64,000 bases of DNA from Rhodoferax sp. Its GTDB lineage: Bacteria > Pseudomonadota > Gammaproteobacteria > Burkholderiales > Burkholderiaceae_C. A program made the position numbers and the translations under genes. Numbering within the stretch: the stretch's first letter is position 1; the number at the start of each line of letters is the position of its first letter. Location: NCBI RefSeq assembly GCF_013297935.1, contig NZ_JAAFIX010000011.1:62001-126000 (forward strand), in the 5' to 3' direction. The notes beneath the pieces were generated by a model. It worked only from the letters and a program-made list of their open reading frames with translations. It made no database searches and had not been told where the DNA came from. Positions 2,314-48,016 of this stretch are shown piece after piece.

Positions 2314-4087
2314 TAAGCCACTCTCTGAGTGCAGACGAGGTCATGGGGCGCGCATAAAGGTAGCCTTGTCCCTCATGACATCCGAGCTCTTTAAGGCGGG
2401 CTGCTTGCCCCTCGGTCTCAATACCTTCCGCAATCACCTTGAGGTCAAGGTTTCGCCCTAGTTCGATCACCATAGAAGCTATGTGGCCACCCAACGCGTT
2501 GTCACTCAATTCAGTGACAAACGCACGGTCGATTTTTAACCGGTCTATTGGAAGCTGTCGCAGCTGACTTAATGACGAATAACCCGTCCCGAAGTCATCA
2601 ATAGCAATCGAAATCCCAAGCTGCCGGACACCATGTAATGTCTCCAGCATGAAGTCGGCATCCTCCATGGCGACCGACTCGGTGATTTCAAGCTCCAAAC
2701 ACTCAGGCTTAATTCCGGTGTCGGTGAGAGCCGCACGCAACTTGTCCATAAATTCCGGGTTCCGAAACTGGATTTGCGAAACGTTGACCGACATCCGGAT
2801 ATCTTTACCACCTTGCGTTTGAAGTCTAACGAGTTCATGACACGCCATGCGTAGAACCCAGTCGCCGATCGCGATGATCATCCCGGAGGCCTCCGCCAAA
2901 GGAATAAAGCGATCGGGCGGAACGAATGTCCCGTCTTCATTTCGCCAGCGAATGAGTGCTTCGAGTCCTACGATCTGGTTCGTAGTGAGGTCAATTTGCG
3001 GCTGGTAAACGATAAACAGCCGTTCACTCTCCACCGCATTGCGCAAGCTTTGCAACAAGCGCACACGCTCGCGAATGTCTGAGCCCATTTCTGCAGAAAA
3101 CATCACAAAGCTTCCGCGCCGGCTCTTCTTTGCTCGTTTCAATGCGATGTTGGCATCTTTTAACGCATCACGGCCCGAGGTGGTACCTGTGAACAACTCA
3201 GTCAGCCCCATGGTCGCAGTTACGATCATGGCATCGTCCTGAACTACAAAGGGACGACGGAACAGGGACAGGATACGCAATGGATCGATGACATCCCGAG
3301 CGCCCATGAGCCCGAAAGTGTCGCTGCCTATCCGGGCCAACACCGCGTCAGGACCAAGTTCGAACTTCAACCGGTCGGCCACTGACTGAAGAAGCCGATC
3401 CCCTTGTTGGTGACCCAGCGCATCGTTGATCTCAGAAAAATCATCAATGTCCAGAATGGCAATAACTACGTCACTCAATGTTGAGGTGGCAAGTCGCTCT
3501 TCACTCAAATCTATGAATTTGTTGCGGTTCGGCAGGCACGAGAGGCGATCGTAAAACGCCATTTCGTCAAGCTTTCTAATTTGCTCATAGGCACGCAGTG
3601 CTGCAGTCACTGTGGCATAGAGCTTAGTTCTGGTTAGCTCAGACTTCGTCTTGTAATCATTGATATCGAAATCATGGATGGTTTCAATTTCGGGGGCGTA
3701 GCCGGGCTGCCCCGTCCGGAGAATAATGCGCAGGTCTGTCAACTTGAGTTCTTGGCGGATAGTCTTTACGAGTGCAAGACCAGCGTCTTCACGCTCCATG
3801 ACAACATCCAGCAGGACAATTGCAACTTCGGCCTCCCCTGCGAGCAAAAGTGCCGCTTCGCTGGCAGAGTAAGCGTGCAAAAACTCTAATTGACGCCCGA
3901 GAATCTGCACACCCGCTAAAGCAAAGGTCGTCGCTCGATGGACATCAGGCTCATCGTCAACGACCAAAAGGCGCCAAACCAGTGGCTTGCTGCTCTCGGC
4001 ATCCGTCTCATCGTCCAAGAACTGGAGGGTATCGCCGTCTGATGATGGGTCCAACATATTGCCATTACTCATAGAAACATTGTGCAT
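2285..4087 (-). CDS. response regulator with receiver, degenerate GGDEF and EAL domains
   Basis: A cyclic-di-GMP signalling protein of about 600 aa. The N-terminal receiver (about 35-160) shows LLVVDDEPDV and the phospho-acceptor Asp in VLLDVVME. It is followed by a segment like the start of DUF3369 (ILRTGQPGYAPE, INDYK). The GGDEF-like domain (about 195-330) reads RIGSDTF where RxGGDEF is expected, so cyclase activity is doubtful. The EAL domain keeps LEALIRW, DDFGTGYSS, LKIDRAFV and AEGIE, consistent with an active phosphodiesterase. The track begins at a TTG; ATG 4087 is the first normal start, although its ribosome site is weak. The partner sensor kinase is not in the window. Confidence 0.87.
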   Translation of the reverse strand: MHNVSMSNGNMLDPSSDGDTLQFLDDETDAESSKPLVWRLLVVDDEPDVHRATTFALAGVQILGRQLEFLHAYSASEAALLLAGEAEVAIVLLDVVMEREDAGLALVKTIRQELKLTDLRIILRTGQPGYAPEIETIHDFDINDYKTKSELTRTKLYATVTAALRAYEQIRKLDEMAFYDRLSCLPNRNKFIDLSEERLATSTLSDVVIAILDIDDFSEINDALGHQQGDRLLQSVADRLKFELGPDAVLARIGSDTFGLMGARDVIDPLRILSLFRRPFVVQDDAMIVTATMGLTELFTGTTSGRDALKDANIALKRAKKSRRGSFVMFSAEMGSDIRERVRLLQSLRNAVESERLFIVYQPQIDLTTNQIVGLEALIRWRNEDGTFVPPDRFIPLAEASGMIIAIGDWVLRMACHELVRLQTQGGKDIRMSVNVSQIQFRNPEFMDKLRAALTDTGIKPECLELEITESVAMEDADFMLETLHGVRQLGISIAIDDFGTGYSSLSQLRQLPIDRLKIDRAFVTELSDNALGGHIASMVIELGRNLDLKVIAEGIETEGQAARLKELGCHEGQGYLYARPMTSSALREWLIARGSIVGS

Positions 4088-40991: not shown

Positions 40992-43900
40992 TCAGCTCTG
41001 GATTTGTGCCCAGGCCTTGTCCAGCCGCTTCACACTCACCGGTTGGGGCGTGCGCAGCTCTTGGGCAAAAAAGCTCACGCGCAGCTCTTCGAGCAACCAG
41101 CGGAACTCTTGCATGCGCTCGTCTTGCGCGCCCTTGCGCTCCGCCACCAAACGCCAGTAGCGCTGATCTTGCGGGCGCAATTCGGCCAGGCGGGCGGCGT
41201 CGCGGGCTGGGTCGGCGCGGTACTTGTCCAGCCGCAGGGTGATGGCCTTGAGGTAGCGGGCCAGGTGCTGCAGCCGGTCCCAGGGCGTAGCCTGCAAAAA
41301 CCGCTTGGGGATCAGGCGGTTGATCTGCTGTGCCGCATCGGCCACCGCGTCGGGGGCGTTTTTGGTGTCTTTGATCTTGCGGGCGGCGGTGGCGTATTCC
41401 AGCAGCACGGTACCGGCCAGACGGGCCACTTCGTTGGCGATCAGGGTCAGGCGCCCTCGCCCTTCATCGATACGGCGCTTGAAGGCAAACTCGTCAGTGG
41501 GCAGCGGGTCGAGCAGGAAGGCGCGGTCCAGTGCCACCGCAATAATTTGCTCGCGCAGCTCTTCGACTGTGCCGCCGGTGGCGGTTTTGCCGCCTTCCAG
41601 GGTGCCCACTTGCATGTAGGCCACGGCCATTTTTTGCAGGTCGGGGATGTTTTTTTCCAAGTATTTCAGCGCGTCCTTGATCTGGATGGCAAACAGGCGG
41701 CGCAGGCCGGCGCGGTGTTTGGCGGCGGCGACTTCGGGTTCGTCAAACACTTCGACGGTGACGGCGTCGCCCGCGTCGATGAGTGCGGGGAAGCCGATGA
41801 GTGTTTGGCCGCCTTTGCGGATTTCCAGCAGTTCGGGTAGTTCGCCAAAGGTCCAGGCGGTGAAGCGGCCGTCGAGAATGCTGGCGGTGCTGCTTTTGCC
41901 CTGAGCGCTATTTGCTACTGTTTTTGTAGCTGCTTGCGTAGTGTTGGCGGGGGCTGAGCGCTGGTTCGACCGGGCGCTCTGCTCCGTGTCCCCCGCCCGC
42001 TGCGCGGGCTCCTCCTTGACCTGCGCAGAACGCCCGGTCGCACCAGCTCCCGGCGATGAGCCACTGTCTTGGCTCGCCGCCTGGTTTTGCTGCAATTTCA
42101 GACTCGCCAGCGCCTGAAAGGCCCCGCGCGCTTGGCTGCCCAGCTCGGCCTTCAATGCACCCAGGTTTCGGCCGTGGCCGAGTTGGCGGCCGTGCTCGTC
42201 CACCACGCGGAAGTTCATGAAGAAGTGCGGGCTGAGCATGTCGACTTTGATGTCGGCTTTGACAATGTCCAGGCTGGTCGCATCGCGCACCAGTTTCAGC
42301 ACGGCTTCTACCAGGCCGCCGCTGCCAAACTTCTCGGGCGCGTTCAGCGCTTCGGCAAACTTGCTGGCGGTGTCGGGCAGCGGCACTAGGCGGCTGCGGG
42401 GGCGTTGGTGCAGAGTCTTGAGCAAGGCCTGCACTTTGTCTTTCAGCATGCCGGGCACCAGCCATTCGCAGCGTTCGTCGTTCACCTGGTTCAGCACAAA
42501 CAGCGGCACGGTCACGGTCAGGCCGTCGCGTGCATCGCCGGGTTCGTGCAGATAGGTAGCGGCACAGTCCACACCGCCCAAGCGAATGGTCTTGGGGAAG
42601 GACGCGGTGGTGATGCCCGCCGCCTCGTGGCGCATGAGTTCTTCGCGGGTGAGCTTCAGCAGGTCGGGCTGTTTTTTGACTTCTTCGCGGTACCAGCGCT
42701 CAAAGCTGTAGCCACTGCACACATCGGCGGGCAGCTGCTGGTCGTAGAAGGCGTAGATCAGTTCGTCGTCCACCAGCACGTCCTGGCGGCGCGCCTTGTG
42801 TTCCAGGTCTTCTACTTGCTTGATGAGCTTTTGGTTGGCGGCCAGAAACGGCAGCGTGGTTTCCCACTCTTTGCCCACCAGCGCTTCGCGAATGAATATT
42901 TCGCGGGCTCCGTGCATATCCACGCGCCCGTAGTTCACCTTGCGCCCGCTGTAGACCACGATGCCATACAGCGTAGCCCGCTCCAGCGCCACCACTTCAG
43001 CCGCCTTCTTTTCCCAGTGCGGATCGAGCAGCTGTTTCTTGAGCAAATGCCCGCCGACCGTTTCAAGCCATTGCGGCTCGATCGCCGCAATGCCACGGCC
43101 GAACAGGCGCGTGGTTTCCACCAGCTCGCTGGCCACAATCCACTTGCCCGGCTTCTTGGTCAGGTGGGCGCCGGGGTGGGCAAAGAACTTGATGCTGCGC
43201 GCGCCCAGGTATTCGCCGTTTTGGCCTTCTTCGAGTTTGCAGCCGATGTTGCCTAGCAGGCCCGAGAGCATGGAGAGGTGCAGCTGCTCGTAGCTGGCGG
43301 GCTTGGTGTTCAAGCGCCATTTGTGTTCGGCCACCACGGTGTGGAGTTGCGAGTAGATGTCTTTCCACTCGCGCACGCGGCGCATGTTGACGAAGTTCTG
43401 GCGCAGGAGTTGTTCGTATTGGCGGTTGGTAAGTTTGTGGGTTGCTGCTTGGGCATTGCCTTGGGCGCGCGCTGGGAGTTGGGGCATCCGGCCGCTCTGC
43501 TCCGTGTCCCCCGCCCGCTTTGCGGGCTCCTCCTTGACCTGCGCAGAACGGCCGGACGCCCCAACTCCCGCCTTAGCCTCGTGCGTGCCACCTCTTGCAT
43601 CGTGAATCCACTTCCATAGCTTCAGGTAGCCGGTGAACTCGCTCTTCTCATCGTCAAACTTCTGGTGCGCGGCATCGGCTTGCTGTTGGGCCTCCATGGG
43701 GCGGTCGCGCACGTCTTGCACGCTCAAGGCGCTGGCAATTACCAGCGCCTCATCTAGCGCCTCGCGGCTGCGCGCCTCCAGCAGCATGCGGCCCACGCGC
43801 GGATCCAGCGGCAGGCGGCTGAGTTCGGTGCCCAGTGGGGTTAGCTCATTCGCATCGTCCACCGCGCCCAGCTCGTTGAGCAGCTGGTAGCCATCGGCAA

Positions 43901-45161
43901 TCGCGCGGCCGCTCGGGCGCTCCAGGAACGGAAAGTCTTCGACGATGCCCAAATGCAGCGACTTCATGCGCAGGATGACGCCCGCCAGCGAGCTGCGCAA
44001 AATTTCCGGGTCGGTAAACCTTGGTCGCCCGTCAAAGTCTTTCTGGTCATACAGGCGAATACAGATACCGTTGGCCACGCGGCCGCAGCGGCCGGCGCGC
44101 TGGTTGGCCGAGCTTTGGCTGATGGGCTCCACCAGCAGCTGCTCCACCTTGCTACGGAAACTGTAGCGCTTGATGCGCGCTGTACCTGCGTCAATGACGT
44201 AGCGTGTACCCGGCACCGTGAGCGATGTTTCGGCCACGTTGGTGGCCAGCACAATGCGTCGGCCGGTGTGCCCGTCAAAAATACGGTCCTGCTCGGCGGG
44301 GCTCAGGCGGGCGAACAGGGGCAGCACTTCGGCACCTCGCATCACCGGCTGGTGGCTCAGGTGCTTGCGCAAATGGTCCGCGGCCTCGCGGATTTCGCGC
44401 TCGCCGGGTAGGAACACCAAAATATCGCCTTGGTTGTGCGGGTCGCGCCACAGTTCGTCCACACCATCGGCAATCGCGTTGTTCAAGTCGTATTCACGGC
44501 TTTCTTCAAACGGGCGGTAGCGCTGCTCCACCGGGAACATGCGCCCCGACACCATGATGACCGGCGCAGGGCCTTTGCTGGATTTAAAGTGGTCCGCAAA
44601 GCGCTGCGCGTCGATCGTGGCCGAGGTGACGATGATCTTGAGGTCAGGCCGGCGCGGCAGTATCTGGCGCAGGTAGCCCAGCAGAAAGTCGATGTTGAGG
44701 CTGCGCTCATGCGCCTCGTCGATGATGATGGTGTCGTAGGCCTTGAGCAGCGGGTCGGTCTGCGTTTCGGCCAGCAAAATACCGTCGGTCATCAGCTTGA
44801 CCGAGGCGTCTTTGCCCAGCCGGTCGTTGAACCGCACCTTGTAGCCCACCACATCGCCCAGCGGCGTTTTCAGCTCCTCGGCAATGCGCTTGGCCACACT
44901 GCTGGCCGCAATACGGCGCGGCTGGGTGTGGCCGATGAGCTTGCCGCGCTCGCCTTCAGGGTAGTTGAGCTTGCCGCGGCCCATGGCCAGAGCGATTTTG
45001 GGTAGCTGCGTGGTCTTGCCCGAACCGGTCTCGCCGCAAACGATAACGACCTGGTGCGCCGCAATGGCGTCCATGATTTCTTGCCGCTTGCCCGATACAG
45101 GCAGGGTCTCAGGAAACTCGATGTGCAGGCGCGGAGAAGCTGGGGAAGAGGTAGAAGACAT
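40992..45161 (-). CDS. hrpA: DEAH-box ATP-dependent RNA helicase HrpA
   Basis: A large RNA helicase, 1389 aa, of the HrpA family involved in rescuing collided ribosomes in E. coli. The helicase core has GETGSGKTTQLPK, DEAH, SATID, TNVAETSLTVPG and QRAGRCGR, followed by HA2, OB and the long HrpA-specific C-terminal domain (DUF3418). Two linkers are expanded by repeat DNA. The 32-residue family 2 element appears twice (AQVKEEPAKRAGDTEQS and AQVKEEPAQRAGDTEQS), and a family 1 copy adjoins the C-proximal one. The track start is TTG; ATG 45161 is used. Confidence 0.95.
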   Translation of the reverse strand: MSSTSSPASPRLHIEFPETLPVSGKRQEIMDAIAAHQVVIVCGETGSGKTTQLPKIALAMGRGKLNYPEGERGKLIGHTQPRRIAASSVAKRIAEELKTPLGDVVGYKVRFNDRLGKDASVKLMTDGILLAETQTDPLLKAYDTIIIDEAHERSLNIDFLLGYLRQILPRRPDLKIIVTSATIDAQRFADHFKSSKGPAPVIMVSGRMFPVEQRYRPFEESREYDLNNAIADGVDELWRDPHNQGDILVFLPGEREIREAADHLRKHLSHQPVMRGAEVLPLFARLSPAEQDRIFDGHTGRRIVLATNVAETSLTVPGTRYVIDAGTARIKRYSFRSKVEQLLVEPISQSSANQRAGRCGRVANGICIRLYDQKDFDGRPRFTDPEILRSSLAGVILRMKSLHLGIVEDFPFLERPSGRAIADGYQLLNELGAVDDANELTPLGTELSRLPLDPRVGRMLLEARSREALDEALVIASALSVQDVRDRPMEAQQQADAAHQKFDDEKSEFTGYLKLWKWIHDARGGTHEAKAGVGASGRSAQVKEEPAKRAGDTEQSGRMPQLPARAQGNAQAATHKLTNRQYEQLLRQNFVNMRRVREWKDIYSQLHTVVAEHKWRLNTKPASYEQLHLSMLSGLLGNIGCKLEEGQNGEYLGARSIKFFAHPGAHLTKKPGKWIVASELVETTRLFGRGIAAIEPQWLETVGGHLLKKQLLDPHWEKKAAEVVALERATLYGIVVYSGRKVNYGRVDMHGAREIFIREALVGKEWETTLPFLAANQKLIKQVEDLEHKARRQDVLVDDELIYAFYDQQLPADVCSGYSFERWYREEVKKQPDLLKLTREELMRHEAAGITTASFPKTIRLGGVDCAATYLHEPGDARDGLTVTVPLFVLNQVNDERCEWLVPGMLKDKVQALLKTLHQRPRSRLVPLPDTASKFAEALNAPEKFGSGGLVEAVLKLVRDATSLDIVKADIKVDMLSPHFFMNFRVVDEHGRQLGHGRNLGALKAELGSQARGAFQALASLKLQQNQAASQDSGSSPGAGATGRSAQVKEEPAQRAGDTEQSARSNQRSAPANTTQAATKTVANSAQGKSSTASILDGRFTAWTFGELPELLEIRKGGQTLIGFPALIDAGDAVTVEVFDEPEVAAAKHRAGLRRLFAIQIKDALKYLEKNIPDLQKMAVAYMQVGTLEGGKTATGGTVEELREQIIAVALDRAFLLDPLPTDEFAFKRRIDEGRGRLTLIANEVARLAGTVLLEYATAARKIKDTKNAPDAVADAAQQINRLIPKRFLQATPWDRLQHLARYLKAITLRLDKYRADPARDAARLAELRPQDQRYWRLVAERKGAQDERMQEFRWLLEELRVSFFAQELRTPQPVSVKRLDKAWAQIQS
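41913..41957 (+). repeat. family 1 interspersed repeat, copy inside hrpA
   Basis: Plus-strand TGCTAC-N8-TAGCT-N19-GGGCTGA, antisense to hrpA and read in the same phase as the other antisense coding copies (TCA GCC C). It abuts the family 2 element. Confidence 0.8.
41956..42051. repeat. family 2 palindromic element, copy A in hrpA
   Basis: 96 bp: a 21-bp left arm (contains CGACCGGGCG), a 54-bp core and a 21-bp right arm (CGCCCGGTCG...) pairing at 18 of 21 positions. Core 52/54 identical to copy B. Length is a multiple of three, and it encodes 32 in-frame residues. Confidence 0.88.
43474..43569. repeat. family 2 palindromic element, copy B in hrpA
   Basis: 96 bp, same 21-54-21 layout. Arms (contain CATCCGGCCG / CGGCCGGACG) pair at 20 of 21 positions but differ from the arms of copy A. 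The core differs from copy A only at a GC/TT dinucleotide in its central loop. Confidence 0.88.
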
Positions 45162-45228
45162 TGGGTGCAATTATCCCGGCTGGCGGCCTGATGGCCGCCG
45201 GGGCGGGTTTTATGCATTAAATCTGACT

Positions 45229-45273
45229 CTAGCCCTCGTGGAATAAACGCGAGCAGCTATGGTATTTGTAGTG
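45229..45273 (-). repeat. family 1 interspersed repeat, intergenic copy upstream of hrpA
   Basis: Minus-strand CACTAC-N8-TAGCT-N19-GGGCTAG between hrpA and the cassette island. It marks the edge of the island. Confidence 0.85.
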
Positions 45274-45360
45274 CTTATGAAGTGATCGAGAGCCGACGTT
45301 TGAATTCAGTGGCTTGCCGTAGGCACGTCCACTTGAAGAAATATATCGGCCTCGGGGCGC

Positions 45361-45867
45361 CTACCGGTACGCAATGTAGAAGGGAAGTGCGGCAATGCAC
45401 AAAGGTGCAATGATCTTGAGCAGTGTTGTCTCGTACCCGGGACCACATACTCGAACGTATAGCGTGAAGGACAGAATTGGCCACATGGCAAAGAGCACGA
45501 CCAGCCCGCCGCTTCTGGCGGCCTGTACGCCGATGCTCGCTGGCGAAAGCAGGATCAGCACGGCAAACAACAGCGAATTGGTGGCCCCAGCCAGAAAGAT
45601 TCGACCCTCAATGGACTTTGCAACCTGCGCCCTGAGGAACTCTCCAACTGGCCGACTGGCCCAGCCTTCCGCGAGTGGACCCGCGCTGAGACCACCCTGC
45701 GATAGCTGCTTGCCACGCCAAAGAGTTCGGGCAAAGAACACCAGCAGACCGACCATAAAAAGCATTAGAGCGATTCCCCTCCAGTCTTGTGCTTGCGCCG
45801 CAAAATAGAAGCCCAGCAGGTTGATGCCGAGCAGAGGCAAGATGCAGAGGAAGCCCAACGTGCGCAT
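45361..45867 (-). CDS. cassette-borne membrane protein of unknown function
   Basis: A 168-aa protein with four predicted membrane helices in two pairs: LGFLCILPLLGINLLGFYFAA and GIALMLFMVGLLVFFARTL, then IFLAGATNSLLFAVLILLS and GLVVLFAMWPILSFTLYVRV. No family recognised. The ATG lies only 11 bases past a GTTAGAT core site, as is typical for the first gene of an integron cassette. Base composition is visibly less GC-rich than hrpA or argA, supporting foreign origin. The distal attC of this cassette is not intact. Confidence 0.72.
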   Translation of the reverse strand: MRTLGFLCILPLLGINLLGFYFAAQAQDWRGIALMLFMVGLLVFFARTLWRGKQLSQGGLSAGPLAEGWASRPVGEFLRAQVAKSIEGRIFLAGATNSLLFAVLILLSPASIGVQAARSGGLVVLFAMWPILSFTLYVRVCGPGYETTLLKIIAPLCIAALPFYIAYR

Positions 45868-45877
45868 GTTCAGCGGG

Positions 45878-45964
45878 ATCTAACGTTGGCGCTGCCCCGC
45901 ACGCAACCTGTGTCGCGAAGCGGCTGCCTTCGGTTGCGTGTCCGTGCCGAGCGCAATGTTAGAA
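45878..45964 (-). other. integron attC recombination site
   Basis: On the minus strand the site runs from TTCTAAC to GTTAGAT (R' matching GTTRRRY), 87 nt. The inner arms ATTG-CGCT and AGCG-CCAAC pair with one bulged base, as the extrahelical base of attC L-boxes does. A second paired segment GGTTGCGT/ACGCAACC encloses a variable central loop. This is the standard attC fold. Confidence 0.85.
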
Positions 45965-45996
45965 AACATACTTGGCATTCTTGTTTTGTCGCCCCG

Positions 45997-46338
45997 TCAA
46001 ACTGTGCGGTCTGCGATAAGGTTAATCCGAGGCCACTTTGACAAAAAGCGAACAGCCACTATGTCTCTGGGCCGAAAACCGTAACTCATCAATTGCCTAC
46101 CGCGGTACATCAAGGCATTTCCGCCGGAGCGCGTGGCCGAAAATTCATACGACACGACGAACATCTTGCCGCCGCGAGTGTTGCCCAACTCCACGGCGCT
46201 AACCACCCTGCCCCGGGTAGTTGTGCCGCGACGCTCTAGCATGAATTCAGCTAAATAGCGGTAGACAAGCCATCCCACCAAAGCGAAACCCGCAATGGCG
46301 GCAGCAGATCTAACGAAGGGCAGGAGTAGGAGTTCCAT
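45997..46338 (-). CDS. cassette-borne DUF3592-like membrane protein
   Basis: A 113-aa protein with one N-terminal membrane helix (AAAIAGFALVGWLVYRYLA). It is followed by a small beta-rich domain (TRGRVVSAVELGNTRGGKMFVVSYEF, then YGFRPRDIVAVRFLSKWPRINLIADR) resembling DUF3592 proteins. ATG 46338 is 19 bases after a GTTAGAT core site, and the gene is followed by the attC, so it is a complete cassette. The track start at 46425 (TTG) would read back through the core site. Function unknown. Confidence 0.72.
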   Translation of the reverse strand: MELLLLPFVRSAAAIAGFALVGWLVYRYLAEFMLERRGTTTRGRVVSAVELGNTRGGKMFVVSYEFSATRSGGNALMYRGRQLMSYGFRPRDIVAVRFLSKWPRINLIADRTV

Positions 46339-46356
46339 ACGGGCCTTTGAAATGCT

Positions 46357-46363
46357 ATCTAAC
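46357..46363 (-). other. second integron core site (R' GTTAGAT)
   Basis: Minus-strand ACGTTAGAT is identical to the R' end of the attC for nine bases. It marks the upstream boundary of the first cassette. No matching R'' lies to its right, so it may be an attI-like site or a decayed attC. Confidence 0.6.
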
Positions 46364-46421
46364 GTAATGTATGGAGCAAAACGTGCTCGATAAAACTGGG
46401 ACTGCTCGATATTCTGGACAT
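46359..46421 (-). CDS. possible 20-codon leader ORF ending in the core site
   Basis: ATG 46421 with an AGGAG ribosome site 6 nt upstream; 20 codons ending at the TAG inside GTTAG of the core site. Such a short ORF recalls the ORF-11 of attI1, which boosts translation of cassettes lacking ribosome sites. It may also be the remnant of an interrupted gene. Confidence 0.35.
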   Translation of the reverse strand: MSRISSSPSFIEHVLLHTLR

Positions 46422-46669
46422 GCAAAACTCCTGAAACCCTTGCCTGACATGGCTTGCGCGGGATAGATCAAGAATTTATAGCGGTATAAAAATTCCGACA
46501 AACACCGCAATCCCATGCAACGAGTGTAGACGCGTATGACCGCACCACCCATCAACCAAAAGGGGGGATTCCGCCCTCCACCGTCGATTCCCCGATGCGC
46601 CCTCCGTCTTCGTAGAGAATTGCGGCATATTCGCTCCTCCTTCATCTGCTCCCCCCACCCGCCACCGCA
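46364..46669. other. non-coding gap between the cassette island and argA
   Basis: Contains the leader ORF described separately. A candidate minus-strand promoter lies at 46475-46501 (TTGTCG, 15-nt spacer, TATAAA) pointing into the cassettes. A short palindrome GAGCA/TGCTC lies beside the core site. The rest, up to argA, shows no gene, RNA or clear terminator. The argA promoter must lie in its right half but is not distinct. Confidence 0.5.
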
Positions 46670-48016
46670 ATGACCTCAGTCTTCAATTTCACCTTCGTTC
46701 CCTGGTTCCGGTCGGTCGCGCCTTACATCCATAAGTTCCGCAACCAGACCTTTGTGGTGGGTATTGCCGGCGAGGCCATTGCCGCGGGCAAGCTGCACAG
46801 CTTGGCGCAAGACCTGGCCATGATCCAGAGCATGGGCGTGAAGATAGTGCTGGTGCACGGTTTCCGGCCGCAGGTGAACGAGCAGCTCGCCGCCAAGGGC
46901 CACACCCCCAAATACAGCCACGGCATCCGCATTACCGACGAGGTGGCGCTCGACTGCGCCCAGGAGGCCGCCGGCCAGTTGCGCTACGAGATTGAAGCCG
47001 CTTTCAGCCAAGGCTTGCCCAACACGCCCATGGCGGACTCCACGGTGCGCGTGATCTCGGGCAACTTCATCACGGCGCGGCCGGTGGGCATTGTGGACGG
47101 GGTGGACTTTCAGCACAGCGGGCTGGTTCGCAAGGTCGACACGGCCGGCATCACCCGCACCCTGGACATGGGTGCCATGGTGCTGCTCTCGCCGTTTGGC
47201 TTTTCGCCCACGGGCGAGGCGTTCAACCTCGCCATGGAAGAGGTGGCTACCAGCGTAGCCACCGCGCTGCAGGCCGACAAGCTGATCTTTTTGACCGAGG
47301 TGCCCGGTGTGCGCATGGACCCCATGCAGCCTGCCGGGGAAGACAACCCGATCGACACCGAGTTACCCCTGGCCGCTGCCGAGAAGCTACTCCAAGCCCT
47401 GCCCGCCGCCAACCAGCCTACCGACGTGGCCTTCTACCTGCAGCACTGCGTGAAGGCGTGCAAGGCGGGCGTTGAGCGCAGCCACATCATTCCGTTTGCG
47501 ATTGACGGCGCGATTCTGCTGGAGGTGTATGTGCACGACGGCATCGGAACCATGGTGGTGGACGAAAAGCTCGAGAGCCTGCGCGAGGCCACCGAGGAAG
47601 ACGTGGGCGGCATTCTGCAGCTCATCGAGCCCTTTGAGCGCGATGGCACGCTGGTCAAACGCAGCCGCACCGAGATCGAGCGCGACGCGGGCAACTACAC
47701 CATCATTGAGCACGACGGGGTGATCTTTGCCTGTGCGGCCCTCTATCCCTACCCCGAATCCAAAACCGCCGAGATGGCGGCTGTAACTGTGTCGCCTGAG
47801 GTGCAGGGTCAGGGCGACGGCGAACGCATCCTGAAACGCATTGAGCAGCGCGCCAAGGCGGCCGGGCTGGACAGTATTTTTGTGCTGACCACCCGCACCA
47901 TGCACTGGTTCATCAAACGCGGCTTTGTGCAGGTGGACCCTGAGTGGCTGCCCGAGGCCCGCAAGCGCAAGTACAACTGGGACCGCAAGAGCCAGGTGCT
48001 GGTCAAGCGGCTCTAA
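46670..48016 (+). CDS. argA: amino-acid N-acetyltransferase
   Basis: First step of arginine synthesis: acetylation of glutamate by acetyl-CoA. The 448-aa protein has an amino acid kinase-like domain (about 20-280; VVGIAGEAIAAGKLHSLAQDLAMIQSMGVKIVLVHGFRPQVNE) that binds arginine in this family. A GNAT domain (about 300-430) has AAVTVSPEVQGQGDGERILKRIEQRAK and TTRTMHWFIKRGFVQV. Convergent with dsbB, overlapping by 14 bp. Confidence 0.96.
   Translation: MTSVFNFTFVPWFRSVAPYIHKFRNQTFVVGIAGEAIAAGKLHSLAQDLAMIQSMGVKIVLVHGFRPQVNEQLAAKGHTPKYSHGIRITDEVALDCAQEAAGQLRYEIEAAFSQGLPNTPMADSTVRVISGNFITARPVGIVDGVDFQHSGLVRKVDTAGITRTLDMGAMVLLSPFGFSPTGEAFNLAMEEVATSVATALQADKLIFLTEVPGVRMDPMQPAGEDNPIDTELPLAAAEKLLQALPAANQPTDVAFYLQHCVKACKAGVERSHIIPFAIDGAILLEVYVHDGIGTMVVDEKLESLREATEEDVGGILQLIEPFERDGTLVKRSRTEIERDAGNYTIIEHDGVIFACAALYPYPESKTAEMAAVTVSPEVQGQGDGERILKRIEQRAKAAGLDSIFVLTTRTMHWFIKRGFVQVDPEWLPEARKRKYNWDRKSQVLVKRL

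Follow-up and report, generated by a model that had tools for sequence, protein, structure and literature searches.

A CALIN-like cassette array that keeps its own attI between hrpA and argA in Rhodoferax, one of several dispersed integrase-less attI sites in the genome

Introduction

Integrons are usually described as one attI site tied to one intI gene. The closest described systems to the locus reported here are the CALINs, for which off-target insertion, loss of intI and rearrangement have been proposed as origins (PMC8618304), and which can be mobilised in trans and, in Xanthomonas, are dispersed at several chromosomal loci (PMC12444791). By default, IntegronFinder 2 calls a CALIN only where there are at least two attC sites, and IntegronFinder detects attI only for class 1. 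As the program is blind to attI sites outside that class, such sites would appear in its output as plain or single-attC CALINs.

Here we describe a locus between hrpA and argA in a Rhodoferax genome that is a CALIN-like element keeping its own attI. It lies in the window, by which we mean the whole 64-kb stretch of DNA that was analysed. An initial annotation, made from the sequence of the window, had described integron cassettes without an integrase at this position. That description is supported by the attC score and by the absence of the genes in relatives, but it was incomplete: an attI of its own heads the array, and dispersed attI sites without intI, of which this is one, are numerous. 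The reading that we favour, and consider probable from the sequence comparisons below, is that the locus is a dispersed, attI-headed, integrase-less cassette outpost that was loaded in trans. In the literature on orphan, multiple or intI-less attI sites, of which our coverage is partial and in which a prior report is possible, we found no description of multi-copy, attI-headed outposts lacking intI; the only match for Rhodoferax together with integron and attC concerned a river resistome.

Results

The cassette block is an insertion between hrpA and argA

The block is flanked on the left by a gene for an hrpA-type helicase (40992–45170, minus strand) and on the right by argA (46670–48016, plus strand). 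In approximately 30 same-genus genomes that carry argA, the start regions of the two flanking genes are only ~35–130 bp apart, and the genes of the block were found between hrpA and argA in none of the relatives checked. Since hrpA and argA stand back to back in these relatives and the genes are absent there, the block has been inserted, and by this comparison it is a lineage-specific insertion. Relatives with both cassette genes at this position, the pattern of vertical inheritance that the initial annotation had named as evidence against its reading, were not seen. On the hrpA side, the 5′ region is conserved to ~45188, its 53 bp being common to another genome of the genus (G312), and the homology of relatives ends before ~45188; on the argA side, it restarts at 46605–46625. 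Neither a target-site duplication nor a terminal inverted repeat was established, the empty site of the relatives being too diverged for a duplication to be defined. The locus has no match in the plasmid collection or in an Rfam search. A sigma-70 promoter scan of the insert found none, with none expected beyond chance, and we therefore claim no cassette promoter.

Unrelated inserts of ~0.3 to 4.6 kb occupy the hrpA–argA gap in other genomes of the genus, for which it seems to be a hot spot of insertion. The gap in G312 (L176) contains a different insert, with a cassette-like gene of 246 aa, an oppositely oriented attC at 3500–3590 and, as named by eye, a possible HNH-type protein and a VapBC-like pair. 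Within the intergenic DNA of the window, we also observe a short repeat, CTCTAGCCCTCGTGGAATAAACGCGAGCAGCTA, at 45196–45276, which has BLAST matches in many genomes of the family.

The array is headed by an attI and the remnant of an intI promoter region

Read on the minus strand, the insert runs from an attI core through a first cassette to a second cassette with a decayed attC. The attI (46357–46417, minus strand) consists of the core GTTAGAT (46363–46357) and three matching motifs of the IntI-binding type, GAGCA at 46374–46378 and TGCTCG at 46384–46389 and 46403–46408, one of which is inverted and two direct. The core had been noted before as an upstream core site and is indeed present, though as part of a full attI rather than as a lone core. 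The site scores 72.2 bits (E 7e-21) with our attI model (R2) and, by sequence homology and motif pattern, appears to possess the multiple integrase-binding motifs of a complete integron. All three motif copies are of the same variant (CTC/CTC/CTC). Such agreement within a site was observed in 33 of 50 sites, against a mean of 9.5 and a maximum of 18 in 2000 shuffled trials, and it could be partly inherited from two old attI lineages.

Adjoining the attI is the remnant of an intI promoter region (46418–46512, plus strand), which ends in the conserved block TATAAAAATTCCGACAAACACCGC (46485–46508). This region is the normal neighbour preceding intI. At the locus, the ATG of intI is replaced by GAC at 46497–46499, with ATGAAACCCGGC in relatives reading GACAAACACCGC in the window, and intI is gone. 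From 46357 to 46512, as far as the intI start codon, the window can be aligned with complete integrons over their attI and intI promoter; these integrons come from three genomes of other family genera (G003, G007 and G135) and from two of the same genus (G312 and G341). The pattern of this remnant occurs in 33 of the 103 genomes of the genus, with a control near zero. In place of the intI coding sequence, there is a tail that extends, together with the right edge of the insert, over 46513–46604 (no strand assigned) and has no similarity to intI. When a profile of the 263-bp element is used, its tail half is unmatched beside intact intI, and the match in the window stops at 46532. Few parts of the intI-less unit are as well conserved as the block TATAAAAATNCCGACAAACNCCGC (46485–46508 in the window), which is kept as well as the attI. 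A small RNA in the common tail was considered and dropped, with only three consensus pairs and unconvincing covariation.

Two cassettes follow the attI

The first cassette is complete and measures 479 bp from core to core (45884–46362, minus strand), with GTTAGAT cores at 46363–46357 and 45884–45878. It contains an ORF for a 113-aa protein with one predicted N-terminal helix (45997–46338, minus strand) and is closed by an attC of the 85-bp type of the genus (45878–45965, minus strand), with TCTAAC as R″ and GTTAGAT as R′. A covariance model (R1) trained on 20 attCs, all from other genomes, gives this site 80.4 bits (E 3.5e-25), far above the next match in the window at 11.6 bits. Its DNA fold has an energy of −23.5 kcal/mol and a z score of −3.7, with 1 of 200 shuffled sequences folding as well, and a simple attC scan of the 64-kb window recovered the site on both strands along with one weaker match. 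The initial annotation had called this attC well formed and had proposed the covariance model as a check, and on both counts its assignment is borne out.

The second cassette carries a hydrophobic ORF of 168 aa (45361–45867, minus strand), by eye a multi-helix membrane protein. Although only its start had been recognised before, this cassette is complete as well, ending in a decayed attC (45292–45351, minus strand) in which R″ has changed from GCCTAAC to GCCGATA and R′ from GTTAGGC to GTCGGC. The decayed site is 87% identical to intact attC sites in L030 and L046; it was missed by the simple attC scan, and its fold is not significant (z −1.0). Decay of the last attC suggests that the array is ageing. 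The ATGs at 46338 and 45867 lie 18 and 10 nt beyond the core sites, as close behind them as had been claimed, and both ORFs are on the minus strand. The two units thus have the ORF closed by an attC, the start near the core and the shared orientation of integron gene cassettes, with the attC of the second one decayed.

Cassette genes commonly have no family or homologue match. Neither protein here matches a known family, and both are without a match elsewhere in our sample of 301 genomes of the family, in the 300 other than the genome studied. For the 113-aa protein, Pfam gives no match even at E 10 and NCBIfam gives none; it has no relative among viral contigs, and its predicted structure is of low confidence (pLDDT 54) and not usable. 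The earlier label of this ORF as DUF3592-like is unsupported by the Pfam search and by the predicted fold.

The genome has seven attI sites and no intI

Using the integron-integrase model TIGR02249, we found no match above the cut-off in the window, in agreement with the initial annotation, or in the rest of the genome, an assembly of 30 contigs that is 99.98% complete; the best matches in the genome are XerC- and XerD-like recombinases only. The adjacent intI gene of a complete integron is thus missing at the locus. The attC covariance model, extended to the full genome as the initial annotation had advised, identified nine attCs (E ≤ 1.4e-5) at six to seven places. The attI found in the window, which we call type I, is present in four copies: in the window, at C12:293.6 kb and as a convergent pair at C1:155.7–157.0 kb. 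The type-I profile was built without this genome and matches the window element at E 1.8e-22. A type-II attI profile, learned from intI-linked sites in G306, G313, G320 and G399, matches three further sites at C12:352 kb, C1:401 kb and C1:680 kb (E 4e-41 to 2e-57). The total is therefore seven attI sites without intI, of two types and mostly with cassettes, and an intI fragment is absent from all seven.

The type-I pair on C1 (L260, 5661–7015) stands face to face, ~1 kb apart, and encloses cassette ORFs and one attC. On C26, two attC sites at 189.8 and 190.7 kb (L257) have neither attI type recognisable nearby, and this pair is possibly a plain CALIN or an attG insertion.

Sites without intI predominate across the genus

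With a sequence model of the unit, we detected 98 type-I attI sites at E ≤ 1e-9 in 46 of 103 same-genus genomes, with up to eight in one genome. An intI gene lies within 2 kb of seven of these sites. Nine of the 91 non-adjacent sites begin less than 1.2 kb from the start of a contig and might have an intI past its edge. There are 51 type-I sites in 28 genomes without an intI match, by a criterion that leaves out matches of 100–120 bits lacking the IntI-specific middle region. Three genomes with type-I outposts (G218, G311 and G313) do have intI, which in each adjoins a different attI type, a caveat for any helper role of that integrase at their type-I outposts. On the cassette side, an ATG-initiated ORF of at least 80 aa begins within 30 nt of 35 of the 57 intI-less attI sites, compared with 8% of control positions. 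In the GTDB collection, 14 contigs match a short motif of the unit exactly, and their titles read Rhodoferax, Comamonadaceae, Burkholderiales or uncultured beta proteobacterium without exception.

The locus could also have arisen by local decay, with a complete integron once present between hrpA and argA, its intI deleted, and the other loci of the genus formed likewise. Loss of intI is among the origins proposed for CALINs, which have been treated as degraded integrons (PMC9024848), and intI fragments do occur near attI in some members of the family (for example, G118 and G209). None of the seven sites in the genome studied here retains such a fragment, however, and with as many as eight sites per genome, each would need a former complete integron. 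The intI-less copies moreover have in common the tail, which is unmatched next to intact intI, and the same substitution at the start codon, and they have lost a LexA-type operator, the perfect form of which (CTGT-N8-ACAG) is found at 9 of 14 intI-linked sites versus 2 of 59 intI-less sites. We consider local decay unlikely on these grounds.

Cassettes differ at orthologous addresses

The outpost at C12:293.6 kb has orthologues in two other genomes (G331, a two-contig assembly, and G330, only 76% complete), with flanks that are 85–90% identical; in outgroups, the two genes flanking it are nearly adjacent. The first cassettes at this address are unrelated in the three genomes, G000 (the genome studied here), G331 and G330; they encode 118, 137 and 157 aa, and each begins ~10 nt past the attI. 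In a further pair, G314 and G309, a left flank of 2.1 kb aligns at 89% identity and is followed by different arrays; the right flanks are unalignable, and there is an IS-like insertion beside the G314 unit. No intI was found in any of these five genomes. As cassettes differ at orthologous addresses with no adjoining integrase, they have changed at fixed chromosomal addresses. This comparison covers the C12 and G314/G309 sites, the hrpA–argA block being absent from the relatives checked. The different cassettes at one orthologous outpost fit loading on site.

These differences bear on the idea that the locus is a passive relic, in which the attI and its cassettes were copied or moved in as a preloaded block by another mechanism and no integrase acted here. 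In its favour, the block is a lineage-specific insert at a spot where relatives carry other inserts, and its last attC has decayed. The unlike cassettes at the same address in the C12 trio and in the G314/G309 pair argue against it, and we rate this reading as improbable, below local decay. Off-target insertion by an IntI elsewhere into a chromosomal attG-like site, a route by which cassettes are known to settle outside integrons (treated in PMC12444791), is highly improbable, as the insert has a complete attI with repeated motifs and an intI promoter region, both outside the cassettes and both missing from the empty site of relatives, whereas an attG insertion has no attI at the insertion point.

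Discussion

The loading in trans that we favour would proceed as follows. The DNA block inserted between hrpA and argA holds two cassettes, headed by a complete attI and what is left of the intI promoter region, and cassettes would enter at its attI by attC × attI recombination. An IntI encoded elsewhere, whether in another integron of the cell, in a transient mobile integron or by a gene since lost, would catalyse this reaction in trans. We infer the loading in trans, and any present-day activity of the outposts, from these sequence patterns; the cassettes might date from a time when the genome, or even the site itself, still had a cognate intI. A broader proposal, which we put forward tentatively and hold to be somewhat doubtful, is that the intI-less unit of ~260 bp (attI, former intI promoter and common tail) constitutes a self-contained family of non-autonomous elements. 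Such a family would multiply and disperse through Rhodoferax-type genomes on integrases supplied from outside, making one chromosome a multi-dock cassette network without a resident integrase.

Should attI sites be both dispersed and served in trans, cassettes could be captured without a resident integrase, and CALINs would not have to be dead relics. Docking sites per genome would then have been undercounted, since attI sites outside class 1 are not searched for. A testable question follows as to whether one IntI loads several attI outposts of the same chromosome.

The locus resembles a CALIN in having attC-bearing cassettes with no intI nearby. It differs in keeping its own attI and promoter region, the attI unit itself being dispersed in many copies, and by the attC scan and covariance model it has one recognisable attC, the second being decayed, where the default definition asks for two. 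Like attG insertions, it places cassettes at a chromosomal site away from intI, from which it is distinguished by a true attI. The delta-attI cassettes of class 1 integrons likewise have an attI away from intI, one that is functional when IntI1 is supplied (PMC12901181); in those cassettes, the attI replaces the attC at the cassette end within mobile resistance integrons, whereas the attI of an outpost heads the array at scattered chromosomal sites. The chromosomal integrons of Comamonadaceae (G312 contig C114 and G003 contig C20) have the same attI and promoter sequence as the locus, and the G312 integron also has the same 85-bp attC type. Relative to these complete integrons, the locus lacks intI, its LexA-type operator is degraded and its tail is different.
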